Source: a virus. From it: DNA of 27,204 nucleotides. The notes beneath the pieces are model-generated. The model did not search any database. It was given only the letters and a program-made list of their open reading frames with translations, and was not told the origin of the DNA. The stretch lies in the IMG/VR virus record IMGVR_UViG_3300010885_031956, positions 1 through 27,204 of that record. One strand, 5' to 3'. The translations under genes were made by a program, and so were the position numbers. Shown here piece by piece: positions 1,738 to 19,704 of this stretch (its first letter is position 1; the number at the start of each line of letters is the position of its first letter).

Positions 1738-3855
1738 TTATGCAAGCCGGGCAGGAATCCAATAGGCTGTGCCTGTGTCATCAATCACCTTCACTTCAGA
1801 AGGGTATTCGGTTTGGTCAATGCCGGGTGCAGTTGTTGCCTGTGCTTCCCGAACAACTCTAGTTTCCATAATTGTGGAATCTATAAAGGTAATGCCTGTG
1901 TCAGCATCAGCTGTAAGGCTTCCAAATAGACCTGATAGGCTAAGTGTTGAAGGTGTCAGAACATTCACACTTTGCATTGAAACAAAGTCATGCCCGAATG
2001 CTGAATCAAACCCTGAACCCTGAACCCTGTATGTGTTTGCATTCAGAATAATTCCTGTGGTGTTAATCGTTAGCCCTTCAAACTGTGGGGTGTCAGTTGT
2101 GTTCAACGATTGGTCAAAACTTAAACCACCTATGTCCGATAAGGTGGCAAATGAATTTATAGATGTTGGGCTGTTGGCTGTGCTTAAAGCAGCTGCAATT
2201 AAATTGCCTGCACCTTCTGCGTTGTTAACCCCTAGGTTTTGCCAAATGAAATCCTGTTCACCTGTGGTTGGTGATTGGTTCAAGTCTCTGCGAACAAACC
2301 GGGCATTGGCAACTGTTTCATCTAGCGCATTGGCTAAGGTCTGTGGAGCAAATGCACCATCAGCAATAACCTGACCTTGGATTAAGCAGCTAGTTTGGCA
2401 GATGGTTTGGATTTCTTCCCCTGCTTCTAATTGAATTTCAATGGTAGCATTAGCAGCTGTGGCTGTTCCCAAATAAGCAATAGCTTCAGCTGTGCCTAAG
2501 CTAAGGGATGACTTCTGACCGGGAAGGGCAGGTAAGTCGCTAATGTCAATGCCCACGATTTCCGGGCCTGTGACTGTCGGATTACTGCGGAAAGTGTTTA
2601 ATGCAATTGTTGCAACTTCAGCCAATTCACCTGAACCGTTTTGTGTGACTGTGACTAATGGGTTGCAGGTTGGATAAAGGGATAAGCTGCGAACGGACAA
2701 AGCAGTTTTATTACCGGGAAGATTCCAAGTGATAATGAATTGCTGATTGAATGGAAGTGCTGGGGTTGCTGTGTAGCTTTGATAGGGTGAAAGCTTCAGT
2801 TTACCTTCATCCTTCCCAACCGTTAAACCGCCACCTGCGGTCACAGATGCTAAAAGATTTAATGCTGTTTGAACAGCTGTTGCAGTTGCGTTCCATGGAA
2901 GGTCAGTTGTTTCATCGCCATCATAAGAAATGCGGAAGTTTCCTTTATAGGAATTTTCAATGTCCCCGGCAGGGTCTGTGTAATCAGGCGCAACAAAGTC
3001 TGCCCGCCATTTGTAAGGGTTCGTATTGGTAATGGCTAAACCCCAATTATTAAGTGTGCGTTGGCCTAGGGCAGCTTGACCTTCAAAGATGTCCCTGCCC
3101 CAACCATTAAAGGTTAACGCATCAAAGATTTTTTGACTGATAACAGTTGGGCTATCAGAAACTGCAATAGGGTCTGTCCAAATTGTGTATGATTCTGTAT
3201 CACCCCAAGTTAACTGCAAACGGTATGTGCCTGCCTTAAAGTTTCCGGACAGCTCAAATGTGTTAGCTGTGTAAGCTCCGGCAGGTGCATCAATAGATGT
3301 GAAGGTGTCTGTGTAGGCAATGGGTCTGACAGCTAAGTTAACTAGGACAACTTCAGCTGCTGAACCTGAACCTTCCTGAAGAACCTGCTGTTGGATAACT
3401 GAAGCAGGAAACAGGGATTCATCCCGGCTGACAAATTCTAGGCGGTCACCAACAACATTGAATGTAATGTTAAACTGCGTTCCAACCTTGGAGACAGTCA
3501 CACCACCAATAGCTGTAATAGAAGCTAAAGCATTTAATTCTGTCTGAACCTGTGTTGCTGTGGCTTCAGCATCTAGGGCATCTGTTTCATCACCGTCATA
3601 GGATAAGAACCATGAACCATCACTAGGGTTTTTATTGATAGAACCAATTGCAGCTTTAACGGTTGAACCCGCAGGGAAAGGAATGGTGAAGTAGGGAACA
3701 GCACCGGATTGGCTAGGCTGAACAAGGTAAATTTCAATTGGCACATTATCACCCAACACAAACCTAGGATTGATTGCTCCGGCTACACCATCAGTTGATG
3801 GCAGTAGCTGCCCTGTTTCTAAATTTACTATTAGTCTTGTTGCCCTAGTTGCCAT
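1738..3855 (-). CDS. Large tail-tip/adhesin-like protein with duplicated beta domain
   Basis: This 705-residue protein has no recognised enzyme motif. Two segments, about residues 80-176 and 305-422, are clearly related: each begins with SYDGDET, continues with an ATAT.VQT.LN.LAS pattern and a GG.TV.K strand, and ends in a GSG..AEV stretch. I recall similar VQTALN-type repeats in large secreted proteins of Planctomycetes and Verrucomicrobia, from memory only. The N-terminal ~50 residues resemble a BppU-like start, and the C-terminal third is rich in Ser, Thr and Asn. The gene follows a glycosyltransferase and precedes the fibre genes, so it is probably a structural tail-tip or receptor-contact protein. 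Its start carries one copy of the five-copy start element, and TAGGGCAAC recurs just inside the gene. Confidence 0.8.
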   Translation of the reverse strand: MATRATRLIVNLETGQLLPSTDGVAGAINPRFVLGDNVPIEIYLVQPSQSGAVPYFTIPFPAGSTVKAAIGSINKNPSDGSWFLSYDGDETDALDAEATATQVQTELNALASITAIGGVTVSKVGTQFNITFNVVGDRLEFVSRDESLFPASVIQQQVLQEGSGSAAEVVLVNLAVRPIAYTDTFTSIDAPAGAYTANTFELSGNFKAGTYRLQLTWGDTESYTIWTDPIAVSDSPTVISQKIFDALTFNGWGRDIFEGQAALGQRTLNNWGLAITNTNPYKWRADFVAPDYTDPAGDIENSYKGNFRISYDGDETTDLPWNATATAVQTALNLLASVTAGGGLTVGKDEGKLKLSPYQSYTATPALPFNQQFIITWNLPGNKTALSVRSLSLYPTCNPLVTVTQNGSGELAEVATIALNTFRSNPTVTGPEIVGIDISDLPALPGQKSSLSLGTAEAIAYLGTATAANATIEIQLEAGEEIQTICQTSCLIQGQVIADGAFAPQTLANALDETVANARFVRRDLNQSPTTGEQDFIWQNLGVNNAEGAGNLIAAALSTANSPTSINSFATLSDIGGLSFDQSLNTTDTPQFEGLTINTTGIILNANTYRVQGSGFDSAFGHDFVSMQSVNVLTPSTLSLSGLFGSLTADADTGITFIDSTIMETRVVREAQATTAPGIDQTEYPSEVKVIDDTGTAYWIPARLA

Positions 3856-3875
3856 TTGGTTGCCCTAGGTTGTCA
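3853..3875 (-). promoter_or_regulatory. Start-associated element, copy A
   Basis: Read on the minus strand this is TGACA, three bases, then TAGGGCAACCAAATG, the ATG starting the 705-residue protein. The TGA is in frame with the upstream glycosyltransferase gene, 12 bases after its TAG stop, as a second stop. AGGG lies seven bases before the ATG and could act as a weak ribosome binding site. The block recurs at four other late-gene starts. Confidence 0.75.
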
Positions 3876-3884
3876 CCCATTTGC

Positions 3885-4535
3885 CTACCTGCGCCAAATG
3901 CCCAATTCATCCCCTAGTCTTTTCATTTCAAATTCAACCATTCTTCCTTCCCGGTCAGCAAACTTTACACACCCACAATGAATGGCAACTTTACCCAATG
4001 GGCATTCCAACCCATTATGTTGCGTTTCCCAAAAAGCCCCGGTGGGCAACCTGCCATCTTCAATGCCACCTTGGTTAGCTGCTGATGTAATAGATACATC
4101 TTCTGCCATGGGCTTACACCCCATCAGGACACCCCTTAAGAGGGTCTGCAATGCCCCACAAGCTGCTTTGAGTGATAAAGCATAAGCCAACCCATAGCTT
4201 GCACCAATAACAGTTTTATGGGTCATTCCTGCCAAGTCTCCTTTGGTTAGGAAATCAGGCATAACTAGCAGGCAGTCTGAATCAATCTTAGCTACCCTTC
4301 CAAATTCTTCAGCCTGTTCAACTAGGACATCAGCAATGCCTAGCACAGCATCTGTTCCAAATAGATTTCTGCCCCGGTTAAATGGTCTAACCAAAACATC
4401 TACATTAGCAGGCGCATCAATCTTGGCATCAGCTTCATCAACCACCCATGCCACAGGCCAATCTGCCGGGACAGTTAATGTTGCTAACTTGGCTTTCTCT
4501 TTATCCCGGTGACAAGTAAAGATAAGCACCCTCAT
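3885..4535 (-). CDS. Putative GT-A fold glycosyltransferase in tail module
   Basis: This 216-residue protein starts MRVLIFTCHRD and has the alternating strand-helix pattern of a nucleotide-sugar-binding half. An acidic DSD triad at residues 85-87 follows a hydrophobic strand (VAKIDSDCLLV), which matches the DxD metal and sugar-nucleotide motif of GT-A transferases. An ED pair near residue 145 and a C-terminal HCG stretch would fit acceptor and metal-binding parts. Length is near the minimum for a GT-A domain, and there is no membrane segment or signal. It lies between two tail-structure genes and is tightly spaced, starting next to the preceding stop. I infer that it may glycosylate a virion protein such as the adjacent adhesin or fibre. 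Donor, acceptor and exact family are unknown. Confidence 0.7.
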   Translation of the reverse strand: MRVLIFTCHRDKEKAKLATLTVPADWPVAWVVDEADAKIDAPANVDVLVRPFNRGRNLFGTDAVLGIADVLVEQAEEFGRVAKIDSDCLLVMPDFLTKGDLAGMTHKTVIGASYGLAYALSLKAACGALQTLLRGVLMGCKPMAEDVSITSAANQGGIEDGRLPTGAFWETQHNGLECPLGKVAIHCGCVKFADREGRMVEFEMKRLGDELGIWRR

Positions 4536-4537
4536 TG

Positions 4538-5173
4538 TTATTCAGGTGGCAAGCTTGTGTCAGCAAATGTGAAATCTTTAATTTTAAGGCTTTTACTCCA
4601 AATGGCGTGGCGTGGAACAGGCCAAAAGTCTATGTCCCCATGTTGCACTTGTGTAATCTTCAACTCACCACCATCAACTTTGTGATAAGCAATAGGGATA
4701 ATGTGTGTTCCTATTTCTTCAACAATGGTCATGTAAAGCCTAGGTTCTATTTCTAGTTTGATGTCTGCTGTCCCACCATCACCCATCATGACTGTTCCAA
4801 CGGTGAAACTTCTTAACTCTTGGCTTTCTTCATCCGGGTCAATCATGTGTTCAAAGAATGGCGCAACAACACCATCACCCACATCTTGTCTAACTGCTTC
4901 CTGCGTTGAATCAACAATGCGTGGCGGGTCATAATCTGCTGAACCGTATTTGTAAACGGTCAGCTGACTAAGCATGATTGATTCTAATGTGAACACCCAT
5001 GTTCCACCTGTCTTGTTTACTGCCCGGACAAACAACAGATGTGGAGCTGTGCCACTTGAAATAACATAGGTGGCTTCATTTGCATCTAACAGACTTTTCA
5101 AATCAGGTGCATTAGGGCCATGGTCATAGACACCAACCCCTGCACTTAAAGGAATTTTAGAGTAATCAGCCAT
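4538..5173 (-). CDS. Tail-tip protein, unknown
   Basis: This 211-residue acidic protein has no motif that I recognise. It is rich in short beta-strand-like segments and contains no signal peptide, membrane helix or coiled coil. It starts at an ATG that shares one base with the upstream stop (TAATG) and ends just before the glycosyltransferase gene. Its place after the tape measure and two further tail genes suggests a distal tail or baseplate component. The coding call is firm from overlap structure and length; the function is inferred from position only. Confidence 0.75.
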   Translation of the reverse strand: MADYSKIPLSAGVGVYDHGPNAPDLKSLLDANEATYVISSGTAPHLLFVRAVNKTGGTWVFTLESIMLSQLTVYKYGSADYDPPRIVDSTQEAVRQDVGDGVVAPFFEHMIDPDEESQELRSFTVGTVMMGDGGTADIKLEIEPRLYMTIVEEIGTHIIPIAYHKVDGGELKITQVQHGDIDFWPVPRHAIWSKSLKIKDFTFADTSLPPE

Positions 5174-6042
5174 TATAAATTAGGATTAGCATGAGGGTTT
5201 AAGTCACCTGCATTCCCTGAAGGGCTGTTTGTGTGGTAAGTTGAACCTGTGTTTCCTGTGATGCTTCCTGCGTTTCCTGAAACCCTATTTTGGAATGTGT
5301 AGCTATTTAAGTTTCCTGAATTGCCTGAATTTATTTGGGTGTGGTAAATGCCACTTGTGTTCCCGTTTATGTTTCCTGCATTTCCTGAAAGATGGTTTTG
5401 AAGATTATAACTGTTTAAGTTACCTGCATTTCCTGAAGGTCGGACTGTGTGATAAACACCACCACTATTAACACCTTTGTTGTTAGATGTAGATGTTCCC
5501 GGATTGCTAGGATTTCTAGGATTCCATGGGTTGTTGTAGTTGGTTGAACCGCCACCACTATTATTGTTGGAAGGGTCAGATGGATTTTCACCACCTGTGT
5601 TTTCATCAGGTCTTTCTTTTGGTGGTGGAAAGTCAGGGCTGTCAGAAGCAATGTTTTCAACTGAGTTAACACCTAAACTTGGCACTTCATAAGGCACTTC
5701 TGCCAATGGGTCTGCATAAGAAGCAATGGAGCTGTCAATCCTTCCATGAACCCTGCCTTCCTGAATGGTGACTAAAGCAGACAAACCACCTTCACCCAAT
5801 CCAACAAAGGTGACTTTGAATGGAAAGCTATAAAGTGTGTCTTTGTTTAATTCTTCAAACTGAACACCACCGGGTGTGACCGTTGTTCCAACTGTGTGTT
5901 GGCTGTTGATTCTTACGCTATCAATGTTGCGCCCAATGCTATTCAAATAGCTTTGTGGAATGTGGCTAGCACCGGCAGGGATTTGTTGAATGCCTGACCT
6001 ATTAGGATAAGTGCCAACCTGTGTCTTAAACTTGGTAGCCAT
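5173..6042 (-). CDS. Repeat-bearing tail protein with Asn/Gly-rich C-terminus
   Basis: This 289-residue protein has three parts. Residues 1 to about 130 look globular and beta-rich. Residues about 136-193 are a low-complexity linker of Pro, Asn, Ser and Gly. From residue 195 a 36-residue unit repeats: 195-230, 231-266, and a partial third copy 267-289. Each unit opens with YHT, contains SGNAGNLNSY or a close variant, and most end in NGNT or TGNT. Such Asn/Gly-rich repeats are often fibrous or beta-solenoid, but I do not recognise the family. Both its start and stop overlap neighbours as TAATG. A spike or short side fibre on the tail tip is a reasonable inference. Confidence 0.78.
   Translation of the reverse strand: MATKFKTQVGTYPNRSGIQQIPAGASHIPQSYLNSIGRNIDSVRINSQHTVGTTVTPGGVQFEELNKDTLYSFPFKVTFVGLGEGGLSALVTIQEGRVHGRIDSSIASYADPLAEVPYEVPSLGVNSVENIASDSPDFPPPKERPDENTGGENPSDPSNNNSGGGSTNYNNPWNPRNPSNPGTSTSNNKGVNSGGVYHTVRPSGNAGNLNSYNLQNHLSGNAGNINGNTSGIYHTQINSGNSGNLNSYTFQNRVSGNAGSITGNTGSTYHTNSPSGNAGDLNPHANPNL
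5176..5460 (-). repeat. 108-base in-frame tandem repeat (2.6 units)
   Basis: Units lie at 5353-5460, 5245-5352 and 5176-5244 (partial). On the plus strand each contains short sub-repeats such as TTTCCTGCATTTCCTGAA. They encode the 36-residue SGNAGN repeat at the C-terminus of the tail protein. Divergence between units is moderate at the DNA level. Confidence 0.8.
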
Positions 6043-6854
6043 TAGCCTGCGGTTGAATAGATTAGGTCATTCCATCCATAAGGCTTTGCACCCTGCATCA
6101 ACTCAAATGAAACCTTGGACATTTTTGGCTTACCCCATTGAACACAAATGTTTTCAATGTTTATTGCTGTGACTAAAAAACCATAACCGTTTGCAGCTTG
6201 TAGGTATTCACCCGGCAAAACATGGAAGTCACCTAACATTGCATTAGTTGTTTTCTGTCCAACATACTTATAAAGGCTTCCAACATCTTGAAGATTAGCT
6301 GCATGGAAATAACCACGCACAATGTTGCGTGGGCTTAAATAGGTTCTGACACCCGCTAACGGTGCTTTAGATGTGACCGTGGAAGAATCACCAATAGAAA
6401 ATCCGGTAAACTTTTTCTTCTCATCAAAGGTTGCGCCATTCTTAGGGGCAGCTTTTGTTCCACCAATCTTAGATTCAAAGTCAGGGTGGGTTTCAATAGG
6501 TTCACCACTAGTTGTGCCTGCACCTTCACAACATGGGTAGGACTGATAACGACATTCAGGTTCTAGCCCAACAGCTTCATAATCAGCTGTTATAGTTAAA
6601 TCACGGTTATAGCGTTTAGTTATTTTTGAAACATAAAGCCCTGACCCTGCAATGATTTCATCACCAATGCTTTTTAAGCCATTTGAAACAAAGTTTGGTG
6701 CAGACTCAGCATCAACAATCTTGAATGAACAATTTAAGATGCGGAAGCCATAGCCATCAGATGACATTGTTGCACCATCCAACAACATTGCTTCTGTTAG
6801 CGCATCCCCATGCTTTTTAATAGGGTCTTTAGTTTTAGAAGGGAAAATTGGCAT
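6042..6854 (-). CDS. Tail protein downstream of tape measure, unknown
   Basis: This 270-residue protein follows the tape measure gene directly, the position held in lambda-like phages by distal tail and tail-tip assembly proteins. No family motif is recognised. It contains a small Cys cluster near residues 101-109 (ECR...CCEG) that might bind metal or form disulfides, followed by a flexible stretch to about residue 150. No lambda J-type receptor protein of about 1000 residues is present in the module, so this gene and its neighbours must form a simpler or divergent tip. The ATG at 6854 has no Shine-Dalgarno sequence in front of it. Confidence 0.75.
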   Translation of the reverse strand: MPIFPSKTKDPIKKHGDALTEAMLLDGATMSSDGYGFRILNCSFKIVDAESAPNFVSNGLKSIGDEIIAGSGLYVSKITKRYNRDLTITADYEAVGLEPECRYQSYPCCEGAGTTSGEPIETHPDFESKIGGTKAAPKNGATFDEKKKFTGFSIGDSSTVTSKAPLAGVRTYLSPRNIVRGYFHAANLQDVGSLYKYVGQKTTNAMLGDFHVLPGEYLQAANGYGFLVTAINIENICVQWGKPKMSKVSFELMQGAKPYGWNDLIYSTAG

Positions 6855-6863
6855 GAATGAAAA

Positions 6864-8165
6864 TTAGTTAGATGAGACAATCCCGGATGCAGGTGGTGAA
6901 CCGCCACCATTTGCAATGCGTTCAACAGCAGCTGCGGTTCTTTCAGCTGCGCTTAGTTGCTGTTCCGCAAGCCCAACCATTGAATCTGAACCTGTATAGA
7001 ACCCACCACCACCACCCATAGCCTGCATAGATGAAACAGCTGCCGGAAGATTAGAAAGGGCTTCTGTGTTTTTAACAGCATCCAATGCAGGCATGTCAGG
7101 AAATAACTTTTCAAATTTTCGTTTTAATTCTGCATCAACCATTTCAGATGTTTGTGTGACACCGTTAACTTCTCTGCCTGTGTAAGCTGCCCTGAATTCA
7201 ACTGCCATTTCAGAAAATGCCTTTAGCCTATCTTCTTTTTTAGTTAAAGATGTGTCCATTCCTCCTGTTGTTGTAAAACCTCTAGCAACATCTTCATTAA
7301 ATCTTGTTGCTTCACTTTTTCCAATCCTAGCAGCTTTTTCTGAAAGTGTTAATGGGGTAGCTGCATCAGCAAACTTAGAAGCTGCTTCCTGTGCATTGGC
7401 TTTTGACCGGGTAATTATTTCTGAAAGGTTATTAAAAAAACCACCTTTAGAATCTAGTTGTTTATCTAGTGCTTGTCTTGCATTTTGTGCATCAGCATCA
7501 ACTGCTGATGTTGAAACTGTATTTAATGCCATTTGTTGTTCAACTGTTCCCATTCCTAGAATACCTTTAAGTTTTGAACCTTTGTCACCTAATAAATCAG
7601 TAGCTACTGCTAATCTTTGTGCATCAGTTGTAGCTTGTTTATACCGTTGGCTAATTCTAAATAAAACTTCTGTTGAAGAAATCTGACCATTTTTTACTTC
7701 ATCTTGTGTGAATCCTAGTTTTTTCAAACTTTCAATGGCTTCTAAATTTCCATTTTTAGCAGCTGAAACTGATTCTGTTATTGAATCAAATGCTTTAGCC
7801 AATTCATCAACAGATGTTCCTGTTGCTTCAGAAACATTTTTTAACCTTTGGTAATCTTCAACCCCTAAACCTGCTTTTTTAGCTTCTGATGAAAGCTTTG
7901 CCATTTCATCTAATTTTTGAATAGCCTCATTTATACCTGATGTGAAATAGCCAATAATAATGCCAATACCTAAAAACCGTTTTATTAAACCTGCACCCCA
8001 TTTTTCTGCTTTGTCTTTCATTTGGTCTAATCCTGTGGCAACAGGTTTTGTTAAACCTTGAGCGGCTGTTTGGCCTGCCTGCTGTGCTGATTTACCTAAT
8101 CCAGCTAAACCCGCTTGCGCAGCTTTGCCATCAAACCCAACTTTAATTGTAATGTCATCAGCCAT
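6864..8165 (-). CDS. Tail tape measure protein (short)
   Basis: This 433-residue protein is mostly helical and rich in Ala, Lys and Gln, with a hydrophobic stretch at about residues 62-76 (RFLGIGIIIGYFTSG) like the membrane-active segment of tape measures. The N-terminus (KVGFDGKAAQAGLAGLGKSA) is a typical tape measure beginning. The C-terminal tail is Gly- and Ser-rich. It lies between the chaperone-like gene and the distal tail genes, as expected. With about 0.15 nm of tail per residue, known for this family, the tail would be near 65 nm. Its start has a variant of the five-copy start element with a short insertion before the ATG. The call is confident from composition and order. Confidence 0.88.
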   Translation of the reverse strand: MADDITIKVGFDGKAAQAGLAGLGKSAQQAGQTAAQGLTKPVATGLDQMKDKAEKWGAGLIKRFLGIGIIIGYFTSGINEAIQKLDEMAKLSSEAKKAGLGVEDYQRLKNVSEATGTSVDELAKAFDSITESVSAAKNGNLEAIESLKKLGFTQDEVKNGQISSTEVLFRISQRYKQATTDAQRLAVATDLLGDKGSKLKGILGMGTVEQQMALNTVSTSAVDADAQNARQALDKQLDSKGGFFNNLSEIITRSKANAQEAASKFADAATPLTLSEKAARIGKSEATRFNEDVARGFTTTGGMDTSLTKKEDRLKAFSEMAVEFRAAYTGREVNGVTQTSEMVDAELKRKFEKLFPDMPALDAVKNTEALSNLPAAVSSMQAMGGGGGFYTGSDSMVGLAEQQLSAAERTAAAVERIANGGGSPPASGIVSSN

Positions 8166-8190
8166 TGCCTTTGGTTGCCCTAGACAGTCA
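8163..8190 (-). promoter_or_regulatory. Start-associated element, copy B (variant)
   Basis: On the minus strand: TGACT, GTC, TAGGGCAACCAAAGGCA, then ATGG. It differs from the other copies by a short insertion that moves the ATG downstream and creates AAAGG closer to it. The TGA at 8188-8190 is the actual stop codon of the upstream gene. Confidence 0.7.
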
Positions 8191-8811
8191 CCCCTTTTTC
8201 TTAGGATTTTTCAGCTGTTCCTTCAGGGCTTTATTGGCTTTTGCCATTGCTTCAGCAACCATTGACTTAGCCATTGGCAACTTATCTTCCTGTTCTGTTG
8301 TTAGAATGTCTAGGTCTGCGCCTGACTTAATAGCATCTGCAAAAAAGTAGAACATGGCCCTTCCTTCCGGCATTGTCCAAACCTGTTCTTCTGAAAAACC
8401 TATTTTAATAAGTGATGTTACCACAGACAATTTCCAATCTAAACCACGGTTCTTTTGGTCTTTTGACTTCTTACCACTAACAATAGGGTGGCTAGCTGTA
8501 TCTTTAATGTAATTCTTCCATGATTCTAATTCAGCATTTAGAAGCTTTTGGTTATTTGCATACATAACCACCCTAAAAGAATCCATAAATTTTGAATCTG
8601 TGACTGCCTTGAAAGGGTCTGCAATGGAGCAAATCCGGGCAGCTAAGATTATGTCTGATGGTTTAACGGTTGGCTGAAATGTGCCGGGCAACAATGGGCT
8701 ATTGATGGCTTCCAATGTTATCCTGTGTCTTAGGCAGAATGGTTTTAATGTATAGCCTGCAACCTTGTGGTTAGTAAGGTTTAAGAATGCGCCTAAGAAT
8801 CTGTTGTCCAT
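8188..8811 (-). CDS. Putative tail assembly chaperone
   Basis: This 207-residue protein sits between the tail tube gene and the tape measure, the invariant place of tail assembly chaperones in long-tailed phages. It is helical, with a Lys-rich C-terminus. No strong internal slippery site with a long second frame is visible. The only A/G run is at the extreme 3' end, where a -1 shift would add four codons before a stop. It may therefore lack the usual frameshifted form. The start ATG lies only a few bases after the T-tract of the preceding terminator, so expression depends on read-through. The function is inferred from gene order. Confidence 0.7.
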   Translation of the reverse strand: MDNRFLGAFLNLTNHKVAGYTLKPFCLRHRITLEAINSPLLPGTFQPTVKPSDIILAARICSIADPFKAVTDSKFMDSFRVVMYANNQKLLNAELESWKNYIKDTASHPIVSGKKSKDQKNRGLDWKLSVVTSLIKIGFSEEQVWTMPEGRAMFYFFADAIKSGADLDILTTEQEDKLPMAKSMVAEAMAKANKALKEQLKNPKKKG

Positions 8812-8816
8812 AAATG

Positions 8817-8844
8817 AAAAGGGCTAGGTGTTTAGCCTAGCCCC
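8817..8844 (-). terminator. Intrinsic terminator after tail tube gene
   Basis: On the minus strand a perfect 8-bp stem GGGCTAGG / CCTAGCCC with a 7-base loop is followed directly by TTTT. It lies just downstream of the tail tube gene and just before the next start, so it would lower expression of distal tail genes relative to tube protein. Its stem resembles the terminator after the capsid gene. Confidence 0.8.
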
Positions 8845-8871
8845 CAACATAAACACAACAACAACTAAAGA

Positions 8872-9243
8872 TTAGGCAGGCCCACCTGCAATTTCAGGGT
8901 AAGATTCCCCACTTACTGAGTAGCGGGAATAACCTGCATTTTCTGTGCGGAGGTCGGCCTTCATAACAATGATGTTAGTTAACTCACCTGTTAAGAAACT
9001 AGAATAAGTAAGAACATCACCGGGCTTAGGTGGGGTAGTTGATTCAAAAACCAACGCATCCATGCTAACATCAATCTTAGCATCACCTTGATGAATTGCT
9101 AAGGTTGTGCCTGAACCATCTTTGGCATAATCTGTGTTGTTATAACTTTGGCTGAAAGAAGCGCTTTGCACATACATTCCTGCATAATCTTCTGCCCCAC
9201 GATAAAGGGCAACGCCATGGTCAATGTTATCAGGATAAGCCAT
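8872..9243 (-). CDS. Major tail tube protein
   Basis: This 123-residue protein lies between the tail terminator-like gene and the chaperone-like gene, the standard place of the tube protein. Its predicted beta content, lack of charged helices, and Gly/Ser-rich composition fit a tube subunit. It is small compared with lambda gpV (246 residues) but within the range of minimal tube folds. A strong intrinsic terminator follows, consistent with high expression, and a copy of the recurrent start element precedes its ATG. No sequence motif identifies the family, so the call rests on order, size and terminator placement. Confidence 0.75.
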   Translation of the reverse strand: MAYPDNIDHGVALYRGAEDYAGMYVQSASFSQSYNNTDYAKDGSGTTLAIHQGDAKIDVSMDALVFESTTPPKPGDVLTYSSFLTGELTNIIVMKADLRTENAGYSRYSVSGESYPEIAGGPA

Positions 9244-9263
9244 TTGGTTGCCCTACTTTGTCA
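9241..9263 (-). promoter_or_regulatory. Start-associated element, copy C
   Basis: On the minus strand: TTGACA, AAG, then TAGGGCAACCAAATGGC, where ATG starts the tail tube protein. The upstream gene ends at a TAA five bases before the TGACA core. This is one of the copies closest to consensus. Confidence 0.75.
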
Positions 9264-9267
9264 ACTT

Positions 9268-9756
9268 TTAGGGTGCAGGGGGTGGTGTTGGCAGGTCTAG
9301 GACTAAACACACCTTCAGGTTAATCATTGTTCCAAAGGTTCTAAGCTCACCTTCCAATTCAGGGGATGAAGCAGTTGGTTCAATTTCATAGAGCTTATGC
9401 CCATCAGCTTGAACAATGGTAGCAGCTGCTTCTGTGTCCCTTAGTCTGTCCATCAAGACTTCAACAATAGCCCTGTGCGCAGCTAACCCGGTGGTTGGGT
9501 CATCAACCTGAACATCAGCTTTGCTAAAGATTTCAACCACAGCATCTACTTCAAAGTTTCTCATCCAATGCTTTAACTCACCGGGTGTGTTTGCGTTTTG
9601 TGCATAGCAAATGACTTGTGGGTTTGTGCGCTTTTCATCTGTCATACCGTTCCTAACGGGAATCAGACCTTCATAAATAGTTTCATCAAAGGCAGTAGAT
9701 AGCAAAGAAACCAACATGGCTTCTGTGTAATTGATAGGGGATGTTGGGGTTGCCAT
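9268..9756 (-). CDS. Putative tail terminator / minor tail protein (gpU-like position)
   Basis: This 162-residue protein sits between the tail completion gene and the tail tube gene, the place of lambda gpU, the tail terminator. A pattern with a helical N-terminus (YTEAMLVSLLSTAFDE), several strands, and a hydrophobic strand near the end (MINLKVCLVLDL) is typical of that fold. It ends in a Pro-rich tail. The ATG lies just after the upstream stop with no Shine-Dalgarno sequence. The assignment rests on position and general fold pattern, not on a diagnostic motif. Confidence 0.65.
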   Translation of the reverse strand: MATPTSPINYTEAMLVSLLSTAFDETIYEGLIPVRNGMTDEKRTNPQVICYAQNANTPGELKHWMRNFEVDAVVEIFSKADVQVDDPTTGLAAHRAIVEVLMDRLRDTEAAATIVQADGHKLYEIEPTASSPELEGELRTFGTMINLKVCLVLDLPTPPPAP

Positions 9757-9759
9757 AAA

Positions 9760-10746
9760 TTATTCAATAGAATCATCTTTTTTACCTGCCACCAAATGTG
9801 CTGGCACAGGTTGATTTTGGCTAATGTATTTTTTACGCAGGGAATACTTAATAGCTTCCCTAAGGTTATTAACCATTTTCCTTGTTCTAGCTCTAATAGC
9901 ACTTCCTGTGTAATCAAGCCTTTCATTGATTCCCTTTGAGTTGCCTTTAGAATTAGTTAAAGAAATGCTTACAATGCCATTGCTAGCACTTGTTGTGGAA
10001 TTGGCTATTGCCTTTTTATTTAGCAACCAAGCAGGGATGCGTGGGCCTGCCTTAACAGGGATTTGCAAACCAGCTTGAATCCATCCTGCCTTAACCGTTC
10101 CAATGTGCGGTTCAATTTGTTTCAATAATTCTATTCTTTCGTCATTAACTTTTTTAGTGTTAATGTAAATTTTCTCATAAGTCATTCTTTGAGACTTTTT
10201 GCGAAGATTTTTATAATAATCCTGCATTGCACTACCACTACCTGTAAGTTTTTGATAAACTTTAGGTGCTTCTGCTAAATAGTTTTTAAGCACCTGCTTT
10301 AGATTCTTTAAGGCTTTAGTTGGGTCTGTCTTAGCTGCTCTATAAATGCGCCATAATGGGCTTTCAGCAGCTTTGCTAAACATCACAGCACCTGTTGCAA
10401 GTTTGGTGCGGGCTGAGTAATTTTGATTTGGTGAACCTTTGCTGTGAATTGAATTAGTAAAAACAGAAGGGTCATTTGAAGCTGCAACTTGTCTAAGTGG
10501 CATCCCCTTAACACTTTTCACAATTGCGCTTATTCCTTTATAAATGCTTTTTGATTTTATCTTAGGGATGTTAGCAGCTAAACCATTTGAATCTTTAGGT
10601 CTAGGTGGTGCAGATGCAGCTAATTGAATGCAAAGAAACTTAGCCTGACGCATGGTTTCCTGTTCTGTGTCTTTCTTCAAACCTGTTGCAAGTTGACGCA
10701 TGGCAACATTGAACCGGGTTGTGTCTATTTGCACTTGATAGCTCAT
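9760..10746 (-). CDS. Putative tail completion protein (gpZ / HK97 gp10-like), extended
   Basis: This 328-residue, strongly basic protein begins MSYQVQIDTTRFNVAMRQLA, a beginning like tail completion proteins of the lambda Z or HK97 gp10 type, which bind the tail to the head. It is longer than most relatives, which are about 130-200 residues; the middle (about residues 140-240) is Lys-rich and helical and may be an insertion. The C-terminus has many Lys and Arg. The ATG at 10746 overlaps the upstream stop as TAATG and is preferred over a start four codons earlier. The family call is tentative. Confidence 0.65.
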   Translation of the reverse strand: MSYQVQIDTTRFNVAMRQLATGLKKDTEQETMRQAKFLCIQLAASAPPRPKDSNGLAANIPKIKSKSIYKGISAIVKSVKGMPLRQVAASNDPSVFTNSIHSKGSPNQNYSARTKLATGAVMFSKAAESPLWRIYRAAKTDPTKALKNLKQVLKNYLAEAPKVYQKLTGSGSAMQDYYKNLRKKSQRMTYEKIYINTKKVNDERIELLKQIEPHIGTVKAGWIQAGLQIPVKAGPRIPAWLLNKKAIANSTTSASNGIVSISLTNSKGNSKGINERLDYTGSAIRARTRKMVNNLREAIKYSLRKKYISQNQPVPAHLVAGKKDDSIE

Positions 10747-11078
10747 TAGGCATCCCACCGTTTACAATCCACCTTAACCCATGCGGATAAGGGCCGGGAT
10801 TCAACTGAGTTAATAACCCACTTAATGTCTGCGCTATTATTTACCACCGGGAATCCGATTAGCTCACCTTCAGCCGGAAGTGATGCTTCATAGGTTGTTC
10901 TTAGAAACTTAAAGGTCTGTGAAGAACCGTTTTGTGAAAAGCCACCAACCATCAACATTTCAGAAGATGATGGGTCAGAAACCATGGCTTGCACCTTAAC
11001 ACCCCTAAACATGACATCCCTGCCTATTTCAGATAAGATAAAGGCAGAGTCATTAGCGAAGGTGTCAAACAAGCTCAT
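10746..11078 (-). CDS. Putative head-tail joining (head closure) protein
   Basis: This 110-residue protein follows the major capsid gene and precedes the tail completion gene, where lambda-like phages place the head-closure protein (gpFII-like). The sequence is beta-rich with an early acidic stretch. It resembles small head-closure proteins whose middle reads VKVQAMVSD and whose C-terminus has W.V.SVE.RP, a pattern I associate with this group. Its start follows the capsid terminator and a 129-base gap, so it may have its own promoter or depend on read-through. It ends with TAATG coupling to the next gene. Confidence 0.65.
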   Translation of the reverse strand: MSLFDTFANDSAFILSEIGRDVMFRGVKVQAMVSDPSSSEMLMVGGFSQNGSSQTFKFLRTTYEASLPAEGELIGFPVVNNSADIKWVINSVESRPLSAWVKVDCKRWDA

Positions 11079-11116
11079 AGGTCAATTTGGATGGGTTTAA
11101 TGGTGGGTTGGTAGAG

Positions 11117-11145
11117 AAGATAAAGGGGGCTTACAGTAATAGCAA
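11117..11145 (-). promoter_or_regulatory. Weak candidate promoter after capsid terminator
   Basis: On the minus strand TTGCTA and TATCTT are separated by 17 bases, each matching four of six positions of the sigma-70 consensus. It lies between the capsid terminator and the head-closure gene. The match is weak, and the host sigma preference is unknown. Confidence 0.2.
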
Positions 11146-11155
11146 AAACTTCAAC

Positions 11156-11187
11156 AAAAAGGGCTAGCCACCGTAGCAGCTAGCCCC
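11156..11187 (-). terminator. Intrinsic terminator after major capsid gene, UACG tetraloop
   Basis: On the minus strand an 11-bp stem (GGGCTAGCTGC paired with GTGGCTAGCCC, including two G-U pairs) closes a TACG loop flanked by C and G. In RNA this is a C(UACG)G tetraloop of the very stable UNCG class. TTTTTG follows directly. It lies 22 bases after the capsid stop. Confidence 0.85.
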
Positions 11188-11207
11188 TTGTTCAGACTAA
11201 CCCGGAA

Positions 11208-12062
11208 TTATGGGTTATAGACTGAAGCCAATGTGCCTGTGGTCACAGCCTTAGCTGAACCAAACATAAGCTCAAAGGAAGCAACATGACTGCGGGTGAC
11301 ATTGTCAGCCCACAGGTTGAAGTAAACAGACAAGCCAAGGTCACCAATAGGAATGATGCTTTGGGCAATCATGTTTTCTTGGAAGCCCTGCATTGCTGGC
11401 TGTGCGCTTGCGATTGCAAGGGCTTCTTTGGAAACTGCAAATCCTGCAAGGTCAGATTCCGAAGGGAATGCACTTGCGTAGAACACACCATTTTCAAAGC
11501 CATAAGCACCTGCTGAAAGGGGCAGACCTGTGGTTGAAGTAGGGATAAGGTTAGAATAGATGCCTGCGTTAACAATCAGACCTTTGCGCTGGGCCTTGCT
11601 TACGCCTGCCCAAAGCTTTGCGAGGTTGCCGGATGAAGGAGTGACAGCAGAATCAGCTGCGGTCACAGTAGCTGCACCATAATTAGCAACGGTGATAGGG
11701 TCTGTGGCAATTGCCCAAATTGCATCAGCAAGGGCATCAAGGTTAACCTTAGTGAGATTCTCTAAACGAATGTCGTTTTGAAGGTCGCTGTATTCTAAGC
11801 CAAAAGGCTGATAGATGTGGTTAAGCTCCACAGTTGTTTTGCCAACCGTTGTCCCACCAATGTCATTGAAGGTGGTTGGGTTGGTTTGTGTGGCAGAACC
11901 TGCGGAAACCACAGGTACTTGGATGGTGTCTTTAGGGCGTTTGACATCATTGCTGAAGTCTGTGCTGAAAAGAGCTAGGGCAGCTAGGCGGTTAGCCAAG
12001 ACTGTTTGCGCCTGAGATGCGACAGAGTCGACAATCAGAGCTGCGTTAATGGTGTTAGACAT
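11208..12062 (-). CDS. Major capsid protein
   Basis: This 284-residue protein follows the scaffold and is followed by a strong terminator. It is rich in Ala, Thr and Ser with few Cys, and its order after terminase, portal, protease and scaffold is that of a major capsid gene. Segments such as VKRPKDTIQVPVVSAG near the N-terminus and the long Ala-rich centre fit an HK97-fold capsid, though no diagnostic motif is certain. No cleavage site is recognised, although an S49 protease is encoded two genes upstream. The start is preceded by an A/T-rich leader (CCTTAAACTATT) without a Shine-Dalgarno sequence, notable for what should be the most expressed gene. Confidence 0.85.
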   Translation of the reverse strand: MSNTINAALIVDSVASQAQTVLANRLAALALFSTDFSNDVKRPKDTIQVPVVSAGSATQTNPTTFNDIGGTTVGKTTVELNHIYQPFGLEYSDLQNDIRLENLTKVNLDALADAIWAIATDPITVANYGAATVTAADSAVTPSSGNLAKLWAGVSKAQRKGLIVNAGIYSNLIPTSTTGLPLSAGAYGFENGVFYASAFPSESDLAGFAVSKEALAIASAQPAMQGFQENMIAQSIIPIGDLGLSVYFNLWADNVTRSHVASFELMFGSAKAVTTGTLASVYNP

Positions 12063-12086
12063 AATAGTTTAAGGAAATTGTTTTAA

Positions 12087-12527
12087 TTACTTTTTGAAGG
12101 AAGCTGCCCAAATAGCCTTTTTGTTAGCAGATAAGAATGCAAGGCGTTCAGCTCCGGTAAGGCTGTTATACTGTTCCAAGATGGACTGAGCTGCCTTGGC
12201 AGGCGTTTCTGCATTAGGCGAAATAGCGACAGGGTCAGCAGAACAAGCTGCAACGATTGAAGCAGCTTTGGCTTCAACGGTTTTGTTAGAAGCTTCAAAA
12301 GTCTTTAGGCGCTCATCAGCAATGGCGAGAGCTGCAACCAAAGTTTCTTTTTCTTTGTTGGCTTCTGTTTTGAAAGATTCAAATGAAGTTAACTCAGCCT
12401 TAGCTGCGGAAAGTAAAGAATCCGAATCAAATAGCTTTTGGGTAAGGTTGCTGATGTCGTTAGACATGGAATCAACCTTGGAAGCTAAAGCTTCATTAAG
12501 CTGTTCAACGGTCTGATTAGGATTCAT
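12087..12527 (-). CDS. Nested internal-start scaffold protein
   Basis: Translation from the ATG at 12525-12527, in the same frame as the HAD fusion, would give a 146-residue helical protein beginning MNPNQTVEQLNEAL. It ends KKAIWAASFKK and contains a segment (AASIVAACSADPVAIS) resembling scaffold or protease C-termini in other phages. The ATG is preceded by AAGGGCAATCAA, a copy of the start element found at four other late genes, with AAGG well placed for ribosome binding. In lambda the scaffold Nu3 is likewise made from an internal start, but within the protease gene. That this shorter product is made is inferred. Confidence 0.6.
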   Translation of the reverse strand: MNPNQTVEQLNEALASKVDSMSNDISNLTQKLFDSDSLLSAAKAELTSFESFKTEANKEKETLVAALAIADERLKTFEASNKTVEAKAASIVAACSADPVAISPNAETPAKAAQSILEQYNSLTGAERLAFLSANKKAIWAASFKK

Positions 12528-12968
12528 TTGATTGCCCTTGTTAGTCAACTTTGCTGAAGGTTTAGGTTTCATAATAATAGCCATTGGTTCTTCAGAATCT
12601 GATTCTTTTTCTTGGCCTGCAATGATTGTTGCAGGGTCTGTGACCTCCACACCCAATTCAGCAACTGCTTCCCGGTTAGCAGAATCATTATCAATGAATT
12701 CATCAACTTCTTCACCTTTGTCTAGGTATTCTTTAACTTTAGATTTCTTAAATGCAGGTGCAGGTTCACCTGTATCATTCATTATCAACCGTTCATAGGA
12801 AAGCCCTGTTTTCTTTAAGTCAGCAACGGTTTGTTCTCGGTCAGATTCAGGACGGTTAGTTAAAATAACAACTTCTTCTGCTTCTGCTTTGATGTAATCA
12901 ATAACAGCTTTAACAGGGTTTCCCTTTTCTAAAATTGTTCCATCAATGTCTGTGATGATGCGTGGCAT
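12087..12968 (-). CDS. HAD-family phosphatase fused in frame to scaffold-like protein
   Basis: This 293-residue frame joins two unlike halves. Residues 1-116 have the four HAD motifs in order: DIDGT (7-11), the Thr of LTNRP (37), Lys in FKKSK (about 74-75) and FIDND (91-95), as in small phage phosphatases related to the 3'-phosphatase of polynucleotide kinase. Residues about 117-147 are an acidic, then Pro/Lys linker. Residues 148-293 are a helical, Glu/Ala-rich, scaffold-like part with coiled-coil character. Between protease and capsid, a scaffold is expected; a HAD enzyme is not. An internal ATG at residue 148 carries the recurrent start element, so both the full-length and the short form may be made. 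Whether the HAD half acts in capsid assembly or on nucleic acid is unknown. Confidence 0.8.
   Translation of the reverse strand: MPRIITDIDGTILEKGNPVKAVIDYIKAEAEEVVILTNRPESDREQTVADLKKTGLSYERLIMNDTGEPAPAFKKSKVKEYLDKGEEVDEFIDNDSANREAVAELGVEVTDPATIIAGQEKESDSEEPMAIIMKPKPSAKLTNKGNQMNPNQTVEQLNEALASKVDSMSNDISNLTQKLFDSDSLLSAAKAELTSFESFKTEANKEKETLVAALAIADERLKTFEASNKTVEAKAASIVAACSADPVAISPNAETPAKAAQSILEQYNSLTGAERLAFLSANKKAIWAASFKK
12525..12547 (-). promoter_or_regulatory. Start-associated element, copy D, stop replaced by AAG
   Basis: On the minus strand: TTGACT, AAC, then AAGGGCAATCAAATG. At the position where the other four copies have TAG this one has AAG, so the upstream frame reads through into the scaffold part. 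It is the only copy inside an open reading frame. Confidence 0.65.
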
Positions 12969-12970
12969 GA

Positions 12971-13768
12971 TTATGCGTTTAGGCGGTTAATAATTGATTC
13001 AATGTTAGGAGCAATCCCGGTTATGATACCTAGCGAAGCAGCTTTTCTTCCTGAATACCATTGACCATTCATGGCTTCTTCAGGGATGGATTTACGAACA
13101 CTTTTAAGGTCATTCTTAAACACCTGAGCATTTTCCATAATGTCTGCTTTCATGAAGTCTAACTGTTCCTGTGTGACTTCTGCACCTTCATAGCCTGCGC
13201 CTTTAGCCCACCCGGAAGAAATAACATGAACCTTAATGCCTGCATCAGCAAAGGCTTTTGAATAATCAGCAATGGAAGCCACAGCACCAATAGAACCATA
13301 AGTGCCGGAAGCCATACCCCAAACCCGGCTAGCCATGCCACCAATCCAAAGACCTGCTGAATTGATGTTAGCACCAAAAGTTTCCACAGGCTTGGTTGAA
13401 TTCTTAACCATGGCAGCTGATTCTTCCACACCTACTGTGTATCCACCGGGTGTGTCTGCATCTATCAGAATAGATTTAATGGCAGGGTCTGCTAGCGCAG
13501 CTTGGAATTGTGCGTTGAAATCTTTAAGGTCAACCATTCCTAAAGCCTTGTCCATAGGGCTTAAGTCATAACCTATGACACCTTTTAACGGTATCAGGGC
13601 CACGCTTCCAACCGTCTGCGCCTTTGGTGCTTCACCCATCAGCATGGCTAACAAGTTGCTATTCTGCGGTTCTGCTAGGCTAGCAGCTCTACGGAAGAAA
13701 GCATTAGCCTTAGCGGGTTCAATCATCATGCCACGGTTGGCATTCAATGTGATGTTAAGTGAAAGCAT
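12971..13768 (-). CDS. S49-family head maturation protease (SppA/gpC-like)
   Basis: This 265-residue protein has a DTPGG segment at 104-108 and a candidate nucleophile Ser137 in NSAGLW, followed by a GSIGA turn at about 158-162. Lys189 in GWAKG matches the general-base position of single-domain S49 enzymes. The order and spacing match the S49 clan, including lambda gpC. It lies right after the portal gene, overlapping its stop (TAATG), and before the scaffold. It would cleave scaffold and perhaps capsid during maturation. No signal peptide is present, as expected for a capsid-internal protease. The family call is firm; the catalytic residues are by motif only. Confidence 0.9.
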   Translation of the reverse strand: MLSLNITLNANRGMMIEPAKANAFFRRAASLAEPQNSNLLAMLMGEAPKAQTVGSVALIPLKGVIGYDLSPMDKALGMVDLKDFNAQFQAALADPAIKSILIDADTPGGYTVGVEESAAMVKNSTKPVETFGANINSAGLWIGGMASRVWGMASGTYGSIGAVASIADYSKAFADAGIKVHVISSGWAKGAGYEGAEVTQEQLDFMKADIMENAQVFKNDLKSVRKSIPEEAMNGQWYSGRKAASLGIITGIAPNIESIINRLNA

Positions 13769-15351
13769 TAGGATTGGTTTATAGGTGGGGAAGTTTCATC
13801 AGCATCTGCTACTTCTATTGCATTGCCTTCATCATCTGTTGATTCACTTGAATCTTCAGCCATGTCTGCTTCTGCGGTTGCAGGTTCAACATAGGGTGTA
13901 GGTTGTCCGGCTGTATCAGCAGGTTTAGAAAGAATGCTAGTTAGGCTAACATCATCATAGGTCATACCCCTAGCTTGTGCTTGTGCGGTTGCCCATGCCT
14001 TAAAGTCTAATCGGGAAATCACATGGGCTTCTGCATCTTCACCTAATTCTTCAATAATGTCCTGAAGGTTCTTTGTTCCTGCTTCCAATTCCCGGATGGT
14101 TGCTAAGGTATCACGGCCCACATCAACTGACAATCTGCGTGGGGTGTTAAAGGTCATTTTCTCCCAACCTGCCTGAGCAGGAAGAATCCCGGCTGTGATG
14201 CGGTCTGCTAAGACAAATTGTTTTACAGGTTTTTCTAACGAATCGATTAGGATTCTTTGCATCACAGCAAATTGGCGTTCAGATTTTGCTAATTCCATGC
14301 GCACAACTGCGCCACCAATCTTGGTTGGATTCAACAGGAAGTCAGAACCAAGCCCTGTTGCCACAGCTGTTTCCCGGTCAAGCACATCAGCAAACCCCAA
14401 CACATTCATTGAAGGTCTGTTGTGTTCAAATGCTTCTAGGCTTTCGTTAGGCTTCAAAGCCATAGCCAAACCGCCAAAGGCAGTAGCAACATCATCAGCT
14501 GTTGTCTGTGTTCCGTTTGCACCCCTAGGAACAGCATTGCCTAGGATACCTGCATCCTGTGAATCAAATTCACCTGAATCACTTTTCAAAGTGAATGTGC
14601 GCCTTGAGAATTCTTTAACCGCTAATTTTTCTGCTGATAGGATTTCTGCTTTGTCCCTCATGGTGGTGACTGAGACATTAAGCTTTGAAATCCCCCTAAC
14701 ACCTGTGAAGCGGTCAGGGTCATAAACATGGATAATTGCAGCTGCGCCTTTAATGTCATCTTTCCCATCATCACCTTTGATGCAGTAGGCAATAGGTCTG
14801 CCAACCTTATCAAACTTAATTCCATTGCTCCAACCATCTTGGTTAACAATTCCATCAGGGTTTGCAACCTTGTGACTTTCTATGGCTTGGATGGCAGGTC
14901 TGCCATCTGTGTGACGGGTTTTTAGAAAGAAAATGTCCCCATCCACAATCAATGCTTTTGTGGTCATGCGTAGCACCTGAAGCCAATTATAGCGTCCATC
15001 AATCGTTGGCTTGATGTTAAACAATTCAATTTCTTCTTTAGCAGCTTTGTTCCATTCAGGACTAGATGTTAAAGGTTGATAACGGAAACCATCACCTACT
15101 GAATAAGTCAGATGGGCATTAGTGAACGCATTAACAAAGGCATTGTTCTTATCTAGTGACCGCATTAGCCGGACGATTTCCCGGTGGTCACCTGAAGTCA
15201 TTTCATTCTTTAAGTCACTAGGCGCAGAGTGCATGACCCTTCCCCGGCTTGTGGTGAACCGGGTTGAATCATAATTCATTCCCTGTTTGCGGAACAAACC
15301 ACCTATTGAAGTGGTTATGCGTTGAATTATGCCTTTGGGTTTTTTCGCCAT
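13768..15351 (-). CDS. Portal protein (lambda gpB family)
   Basis: This 527-residue protein has features of lambda-type portals: an N-terminal basic segment, an R.R...RNNAFVNA-like stretch (KNNAFVNAFTNAH at about residue 69), a GDGF turn, an SHKV..PDG segment, and a central HVYDPDRFTGVRGIS region typical of the family. The C-terminal ~60 residues are strongly acidic and probably disordered. Its neighbours are the gpW-like joiner upstream and the S49 protease downstream, the same order as lambda W-B-C. It would form the twelve-subunit ring for DNA passage. The start ATG has no Shine-Dalgarno sequence. Confidence 0.92.
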   Translation of the reverse strand: MAKKPKGIIQRITTSIGGLFRKQGMNYDSTRFTTSRGRVMHSAPSDLKNEMTSGDHREIVRLMRSLDKNNAFVNAFTNAHLTYSVGDGFRYQPLTSSPEWNKAAKEEIELFNIKPTIDGRYNWLQVLRMTTKALIVDGDIFFLKTRHTDGRPAIQAIESHKVANPDGIVNQDGWSNGIKFDKVGRPIAYCIKGDDGKDDIKGAAAIIHVYDPDRFTGVRGISKLNVSVTTMRDKAEILSAEKLAVKEFSRRTFTLKSDSGEFDSQDAGILGNAVPRGANGTQTTADDVATAFGGLAMALKPNESLEAFEHNRPSMNVLGFADVLDRETAVATGLGSDFLLNPTKIGGAVVRMELAKSERQFAVMQRILIDSLEKPVKQFVLADRITAGILPAQAGWEKMTFNTPRRLSVDVGRDTLATIRELEAGTKNLQDIIEELGEDAEAHVISRLDFKAWATAQAQARGMTYDDVSLTSILSKPADTAGQPTPYVEPATAEADMAEDSSESTDDEGNAIEVADADETSPPINQS

Positions 15352-15354
15352 AAA

Positions 15355-15612
15355 TCAGTTAAAGTCTAACCCGGAAAGGTCAGAAGAAAGATGGCGGTTC
15401 TTTGAACCATACTTGGAGGGCCATTTCTTTTGAAGGGCATAAGTCACTTCATCCAAAAGGCTTTCTGTGCTAATTGCTATCTGCTTCCCAACAGATGTTC
15501 CTGAGTCTGACCAACTAGTGACCGTAGCACCCGCAACTAAATCTGCTAAACACCTTGTTCTGAGTGTTAGCAATTCTTGTTCAGTCAAGGTGACTAGGAT
15601 TCCTTTAGCCAT
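15355..15612 (-). CDS. gpW-like head-tail joining protein
   Basis: This 85-residue protein lies between large terminase and portal, the position of gpW in lambda. It is of similar length (gpW is 68 residues) and has two helical segments around a short beta-like centre. The LTLRTRCLADLVAGATVTSW stretch followed by a Gly/Ser turn and an E..L..V..AL helix fits the gpW family pattern. It would sit below the portal and help attach the tail. It starts with a near-consensus copy of the recurrent start element. Confidence 0.8.
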   Translation of the reverse strand: MAKGILVTLTEQELLTLRTRCLADLVAGATVTSWSDSGTSVGKQIAISTESLLDEVTYALQKKWPSKYGSKNRHLSSDLSGLDFN

Positions 15613-15632
15613 TTGGTTGCCCTAAGATGTCA
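15610..15632 (-). promoter_or_regulatory. Start-associated element, copy E
   Basis: On the minus strand: TTGACA, TCT, then TAGGGCAACCAAATGGC. The TGA at 15630-15632 is the stop codon of the terminase, so the element bridges the stop of one gene and the start of the next. Confidence 0.75.
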
Positions 15633-18969: not shown

Positions 18970-19704
18970 TTAACTAAGCTTTGCTTTGCCTATGGAATAA
19001 ACAGGCTTTCTTTTGAATTTAGATTTCTTTTTAGATTTAATGGAGGGTGGGCCACGCTTGGTAGGCTTAGGGTAGCTGCACCCTGCCTTGCCCATGGTAG
19101 TCAGATGGGTGGGTTGGGTGGAGTGAACCACCATGCGATAAGTAGGGGGAAGGTCTAGTGCTGTGATTACTCGCCTAAGTCTTTTGCTTACTGCCTGCCG
19201 GGTGCATCCATAAGCCTTGGCTAGACTGCCTACGGTCATGCCGGGGAAGCCTAGCGCAACAGCTACCACTTCACCATGTAGGCGGGTTGATGGGTCTGAT
19301 GCTACTTCATAGACCTTTAGCACCTTCCTTAGCACTTCCATCAGGACTATCAGATGGATGTGGTTGGGCTTAGAATTATTTTGGGCATTAGGTTCAATGG
19401 GTTCAGGGTCATAATGGCAAAGGGCTTTACCAAACAGATTGGTCTGTGGCTGTCCGGCTGAACCATCTGTGAAATAATCCCAATCATCCGGGTTAGTTGC
19501 ATTCTTAGTCTGTGGCCTGATTTCATCTGTTAGGTTTCTAGGGTCAGGCTTACCACCCAACATCTTCAGCTGCTCAGGTGTCAGGCTGTTATAGAATCCC
19601 TTATAGGCTTTAGCTAATGGGGGTGGGGTAATAGGAATGTAGGAAGCAAATTTGCCATCCCCTATTTTTTGTCCACCCCTACGGTTCAAGTCTTGTTCAG
19701 CCAT
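18970..19704 (-). CDS. DNA-binding protein with sigma-like helix-turn-helix
   Basis: This 244-residue protein has a helix-turn-helix at about residues 154-178 (MTVGSLAKAYGCTRQAVSKR) close to region 4 of sigma factors and related regulators. The C-terminal ~35 residues are Lys-rich and could bind DNA or polymerase non-specifically. The N-terminal half is Pro-rich without a known fold. It is the last gene before the late control gap, so a late-gene regulator is a reasonable guess. It could instead be a phage replication or packaging accessory. Its start overlaps the preceding gene by 19 bases. Confidence 0.7.
   Translation of the reverse strand: MAEQDLNRRGGQKIGDGKFASYIPITPPPLAKAYKGFYNSLTPEQLKMLGGKPDPRNLTDEIRPQTKNATNPDDWDYFTDGSAGQPQTNLFGKALCHYDPEPIEPNAQNNSKPNHIHLIVLMEVLRKVLKVYEVASDPSTRLHGEVVAVALGFPGMTVGSLAKAYGCTRQAVSKRLRRVITALDLPPTYRMVVHSTQPTHLTTMGKAGCSYPKPTKRGPPSIKSKKKSKFKRKPVYSIGKAKLS

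Follow-up and report, generated by a model that had tools for sequence, protein, structure and literature searches.

The stretch analysed here, referred to as the window, is the whole IMG/VR virus record IMGVR_UViG_3300010885_031956 with a length of 27,204 bases. A short block is repeated five times within it, and each copy was found where the initial annotation had placed it, on the minus strand and ending at the start codon of a plausible gene. The copies and the genes that they precede are listed below (ORF, open reading frame; aa, amino acids); the names scaffold, tube and gpW are based on gene order and size and not on profile hits.

3853..3876, minus strand: element copy at the tail adhesin gene start, exact 15-mer, GTGACAACCTAGGGCAACCAAATG
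8163..8191, minus strand: element copy at the tape measure gene start, one mismatch, ATG displaced by 5 nucleotides (nt), GTGACTGTCTAGGGCAACCAAAGGCAATG
9241..9264, minus strand: element copy at the tail tube gene start, exact 15-mer, TTGACAAAGTAGGGCAACCAAATG
12525..12548, minus strand: element copy at the internal scaffold start within the fused HAD/scaffold ORF, two mismatches, TTGACTAACAAGGGCAATCAAATG
15610..15633, minus strand: element copy at the gpW-like joiner start, exact 15-mer, TTGACATCTTAGGGCAACCAAATG
1738..3855, minus strand: tail adhesin-like gene, 705 aa (ORF, PHROG tail hits)
6864..8165, minus strand: tape measure gene, 433 aa (PHROG tape measure hits)
8872..9243, minus strand: tail tube-like gene, 123 aa (ORF, gene order; without profile hit)
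12087..12968, minus strand: fused ORF with an N-terminal HAD hydrolase domain and a C-terminal scaffold from the ATG at 12527 (Pfam HAD hit, ORF)
15355..15612, minus strand: gpW-like joiner gene, 85 aa (ORF, order between terminase and portal; without profile hit)

The 15-mer TAGGGCAACCAAATG is exact at 3853, 9241 and 15610. The copy at 8168-8182 differs from it by one mismatch and has its ATG shifted by 5 nt, and the copy at 12525 differs by two and reads AAGGGCAATCAAATG. The hexamer TTGACA, after which the block had originally been titled, is exact at 9241 and 15610 only; TTGACT stands at 12525 and GTGACA/GTGACT at 3853 and 8163. The TGA in the 15610 copy is the stop codon of the large terminase gene. 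The scaffold start at 12527 is internal and in frame within the HAD/scaffold ORF: because the 12525 copy has AAG for the in-frame TAG of the other copies, the HAD domain is readable through into the scaffold, with the internal ATG kept.

TAGGGCAACCAAATG is the sole 15-mer family with three copies in the window, and second-order Markov simulation, run 300 times, yielded 0 instances of a 15-mer in three copies or of a 13-mer in four. With three mismatches allowed the block is less special (five matches vs 1.6 expected). The block is start-associated and non-random, as had been claimed, since its copy number is beyond chance and all five copies lie at starts. No further copy within two mismatches was found in the whole window, and its portal, capsid, protease and both terminase genes are without a copy. 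The earlier remark that most other genes of the window lack a Shine-Dalgarno (SD) site also holds when judged by duplex energy. A second partial copy, CTAGGGCAAC, lies at 3839-3848, within adhesin codons 3-6 and just past the 3853 copy.

The exact form TAGGGCAACC is peculiar to this phage. Searching IMG/VR with the long pattern gave 0 hits, the 15-mer gave 42 single hits and none in multiple copies, and blastn against phages gave no match. The 42 hits were discarded as chance, being mostly away from gene starts. Relatives of the phage (loci labelled L with a number) were not found by a single-protein terminase query; they were recovered through terminase alignments, and a capsid-alignment scan added about 40 more. 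Those collinear with the window, one of them in a Verrucomicrobiota metagenome-assembled genome (MAG), have terminases 62-65% identical to that of the window and, at these five genes, a repeated element that differs from the window block. It reads TTGACACGGGCGGTAAATACAA-ATG at gpW, TTGACACGGGCGGTAAAGATAGAAACCA-ATG at the tube, TTGACACGCTCGGTAAAGATAGAAACCGAC-ATG at the scaffold (in L051/L131 an internal start here too), TTGCCCCCCGTGGTAATGACAAAGGGC-ATG at the tape and TTGCCGCCGCTGGTAATGACAAAGC-ATG at the adhesin. When these five are aligned from their first T, positions 1-3, 5, 7, 12-16, 19 and 21 are common, and the register is fixed over 21 nt with the ATG following the first T by 22 (gpW), 28 (tube), 30 (scaffold), 27 (tape) or 25 nt (adhesin). 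The window and its relatives have in common TG-C at 2, 3 and 5, GG at 12-13 and A at 16 and 21. Judging from these alignments, the position of the element is ancient, unlike its exact sequence. Of the conservation outside the start codon that the initial annotation had expected in relatives, the TTGAC core and the position are found, and TAGGGCAACC itself is not.

In more distant prophages of Verrucomicrobiota, whose terminases are about 31% identical (L141 and L144 in Puniceicoccaceae Marseille-Q1082, L143 and L148 in LW23, and L146 in an Opitutales MAG), and also in L053, many ATGs are preceded at 19-25 nt by TTGACA, and the spacer between the two is unconserved. Across all terminase relatives, the distance between TTGACA and ATG has a single peak at 19-24 nt, with 81 unique cases vs about 14 expected from the flanking range. 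Most of the longer relatives among the roughly 40 from the capsid scan have several such starts each, hereafter called tagged starts, and in this independent set the density at 19-24 nt is 19 times background for TTGACA, 4.6 times for TTGACT and 0-2.1 times for nine other words. One clade of the set (the L200 clade) has the body TTGACAC-N8-GAGGGC abutting the ATG, with AGGGC lacking a spacer. In L174, L175 and L178, a repeated CTAAARRT precedes the ATG instead and looks like the latter half of the L131 element. When orthologous starts were compared in 14 pairs (L141/L144, L143/L148), the hexamer proved unchanged at 84/84 positions, with 60% identity in the preceding 10 nt and 73% in the spacer; in one case (L143 15949 vs L148 16282) TTGACA is kept although the spacer is unrelated, the proteins being 97% identical. 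In these phages, a TTGAC[A/T] core occupies a fixed place just before certain virion genes, recurrently those of the gpW-like joiner, scaffold and tube, and is joined to a body that is specific to the lineage.

Two host genomes were inspected place by place. Genome-wide, TTGACA-N12-18-ATG and TTGACA-N24-30-ATG numbered 70 vs 79 and 188 vs 174, and the former clusters in two prophages of each host genome; by crude gene calls, 1/162 host genes was tagged. A host-wide signal was ruled out, as the spacing is not enriched across the two host chromosomes. As is to be expected of a late promoter, copies lie before late genes and not across the host chromosome. The nearest named phages, P8625 and Moulinsart, have no tags, and those of S-LBS1 are probably chance. 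At a tagged start of a distant phage (L093 15045, L125 10938) we observed TTGACA-N8-TAGGGCAAT-ATG, which shares the window word TAGGGCAA and may be chance. L147 is labelled as a Prevotellaceae MAG, yet its phage terminase is of the Verrucomicrobiota group, and it is probably mis-binned.

We posit, with a probability of roughly 0.6, that the block is a phage-specific late promoter giving near-leaderless transcripts, and prefer this reading over a ribosome-binding element. The block is probably this phage's version of a late-promoter element shared by a group of Verrucomicrobiota phages. The transcription machinery would contact the DNA at the core, and RNA would begin about 15-22 nt downstream of the first T, at the start codon or a few nt ahead of it. 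The late genes might then be read as short units, namely gpW-portal-protease, scaffold-capsid, tube plus terminator, tape, and adhesin, and such near-leaderless mRNAs would not need an SD site.

Terminators in front of the element point to local transcription starts. Strong ones are separated from it by a few to about 20 nt at the tape and adhesin genes of L132 and in L108/L110/L111, L113, L143 and L148, and a nine-T tract stops two bases 5' of TAAAGATAG-ATG in L174, L175, L177 and L178. In L144 the terminator-like GGGACAT-TTGACAG-ATGTCCC-TTTTTTT adjoins a GTG start, and in L141 and L144 an ATG lies inside a terminator stem. With loose criteria, terminators are enriched (14/88 vs 15/323, p=0.0008). 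A divergent gene pair in L095 has its ATGs 48 nt apart with one TTGACA 19 nt from each. The base at -1 of the ATG is a pyrimidine at 62/85 tagged vs 189/388 untagged starts (p=6e-5; untagged starts were taken from a crude ORF rule, and smaller sets were also examined), an excess that would be expected if RNA initiates at the A of the ATG. Sigma-70 promoter-like matches in the late region of the window number 13 vs 31.6 in shuffles. It is unlikely that translation truly begins at a later codon, because the gpW codons from position 2 on show mostly synonymous changes between L141 and L144. Some tagged starts (L081 5117, L095 6628, L105 9820) have hairpins with the ATG in the loop, GTTGGCC-TGCAT-GGCCAAC and the like, which are kept among related phages. 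A hairpin as a universal part of the element was rejected, as good folding was seen at only about one third of tagged starts (mean z -0.7).

Several observations weigh against a promoter. Under strict rules and with more loci, the terminator enrichment is marginal (5/144 vs 6/517, p=0.07), so that the argument relies on individual terminator cases, several of which are related sequences and not independent events. No conserved -10 box was found after TTGACA; one placed 16-18 nt past it was considered and dropped, as it would fall within the ORF and is unconserved. A -35-type hexamer 20 nt from the RNA start fits no standard sigma-70 geometry. The base before the ATG is often a purine in the window and its close relatives, and SD strength and frequency are overall equal for tagged and untagged starts (absence of SD as a general rule at tagged starts failed on the wider set). 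The narrow distance of 19-24 nt between TTGACA and ATG in most lineages is moreover like that of a ribosome site, and would suit a translation-initiation element in which UUGACA at about -20 of a polycistronic late mRNA recruits the ribosome via a phage factor or a modified ribosome, replacing the SD site. Such an element would also fit the G001 prophage, where early genes mostly have a strong SD and tagged genes mostly none, and the TAGGG of the window, which lies at SD distance, 7 nt before the ATG. We nevertheless regard it as unlikely, since in the close relatives the ATG distance varies between 22 and 30 nt at a fixed register, terminators stand between the upstream gene and the ATG, start codons lie within stable hairpins, and host genes do not use the signal. 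The block as a simple translation-level signal, as first suggested, is not supported, given the same register and terminators and the AGGGC abutting the ATG. That the TAGGG is an ordinary weak SD repeated by happenstance appears highly improbable: its duplex energies are about -3.3 to -5.2 at four window copies, but the TTGAC core would be left unexplained, no SD match was found at the same genes in close relatives, and in the L200 clade AGGGC sits directly against the ATG.

The block had also been proposed as a module boundary, and one clear case bears this out. The identity of L131 and L138 is 97% from TTGACA onward but 37% over the preceding 60 nt, so that the breakpoint lies no more than a few nt from TTGACA; a further domain before the element, about 360 nt long, is present in one and absent from the other, and the HAD domain of the window is a third, unrelated context upstream of one scaffold start. 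Together with the greater likeness of copies within one genome than across lineages, this would be compatible with a pure exchange boundary or a short mobile sequence kept by recombination without a role in expression. We consider that very unlikely, as no other clear breakpoint was seen, the distance to the start codon is fixed over very distant phages although the spacer is unconserved, and recombination needs no strict association with strand or start. Selection keeping a promoter intact would also place the L131/L138 breakpoint at TTGACA.

For the late promoter that we favor, a candidate regulator is encoded just before the terminase genes.

18970..19704, minus strand: helix-turn-helix (HTH) protein encoded ahead of the late block and carrying a sigma-region-4-like domain (family alignment, model match, and a weak Pfam Sigma70_r4 hit at E=0.12)

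HTH genes occupy this place in the window, in L151 (12668-13189) and in others, and related HTH proteins are encoded directly ahead of the late block in L151/L141, L143, L146, L148 and L053 as well as in several viral contigs. The structural model of the window protein has a predicted local distance difference test score (pLDDT) of about 87-94 at residues 141-180, and its residues 106-185 align to sigma region 4, with sigma factors making up nearly all of the best 50 matches. Cellular sigma region 4 members read TTGACA, and by analogy the HTH protein might bind this hexamer and, speculatively, switch the promoters on as a late regulator. Among loci with enough flank, two or more tags occur in 10/12 HTH-positive vs 2/10 HTH-negative ones. 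Against this role stand the middling structural match (Z 5-6), the kinship among loci, for which these counts are not corrected, and the tagged phages L111, L182 and L184, in which no HTH hit was obtained. The HTH protein of L144 (0-629) is split across two frames, perhaps by a frameshift or as a decayed gene. TTGACA tags also occur within the first codons of the HTH gene (L197 3251, L200 3050, L207 2938), which may be coding coincidence or self-control. More tentatively, the element could represent a new promoter class, in which a phage sigma-region-4-like protein would read a -35-type hexamer lying about 20 nt upstream of the start codon and the polymerase would initiate at that codon, yielding many separate leaderless virion mRNAs in a large group of Verrucomicrobiota phages.

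Parts of this arrangement are known from other phages. In T4 gene e, a start-region hairpin silences read-through RNA, and the RNA of the local late promoter lacks its 5' arm. The hairpins over start regions described above would act similarly, but here they concern only part of the tagged starts and the promoter motif is another. RinA, Ltr and ArpU are late regulators of Gram-positive phages that are encoded at the end of the early operon and act mainly on one late promoter before terS. The HTH protein is likewise encoded just before the terminase genes; in contrast, many starts would be served here, and no sequence family hit was obtained. The late promoters of jumbo phages (phiKZ TATG, AR9 AACA-N6-TA/G) are read by phage multisubunit RNA polymerases, and AR9 leaders measure 26-491 nt (PMC5312081). 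The likeness lies in a very short motif that is separated by a few to some ten nt from the RNA start, here a predicted one, and occurs in many copies with each serving its own gene; the motif differs, and no multisubunit RNA polymerase was found among the scanned proteins of the window and the G001 prophage, records that may be incomplete. Start-Associated Sequences (SAS/ESAS) of cluster K mycobacteriophages are short, oriented elements repeated before starts, absent from the host and of unproven function; the 13-bp SAS consensus GGGATAGGAGCCC includes an SD and is located for the most part away from the structural module (PMC3203893, PMC12699233). The resemblance to such sequences noted in the initial annotation extends to placement just upstream of the starts of different genes, to orientation and to absence from the host. 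It does not extend to sequence, as TTGAC-N4-TAGGGCAACCAAATG of the window is not within two mismatches of GGGATAGGAGCCC, and the window element differs further in its TTGAC core and its location at virion genes. The element may work like the SAS and the phiKZ/AR9 promoters, and membership in either goes beyond the evidence.

Gene control in Verrucomicrobiota phages is almost unknown, and literature searches on promoters or leaderless mRNA in these phages turned up no relevant work. By predicting which virion genes carry a separate start signal, the hexamer provides a testable late regulon for mostly uncultured phages. It also sharpens the annotation of start codons, including hidden scaffold starts in fused genes, and points to one candidate regulator in each phage. 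Such prophages are present, among others, in the genomes of Puniceicoccaceae Marseille-Q1082 and strain LW23.

The tube gene of the window is followed by a further feature, which has a counterpart in L132, where a terminator-like hairpin lies in the same place (2008-2029).

8819..8845, minus strand: terminator-like hairpin past the tube gene, GGGGGCTAGGCTAAACACCTAGCCCTT followed by a T-rich tail (consensus scans)

In the left-end tail fibre-like gene, a tandem 9-nt repeat at 1045-1152 encodes collagen-like GIQ repeats. The early region contains a Rad52/Erf-like annealing protein (23014-23889), a DNA methyltransferase-like protein (25321-25944) and a DnaC-like helicase loader (26207-26875).

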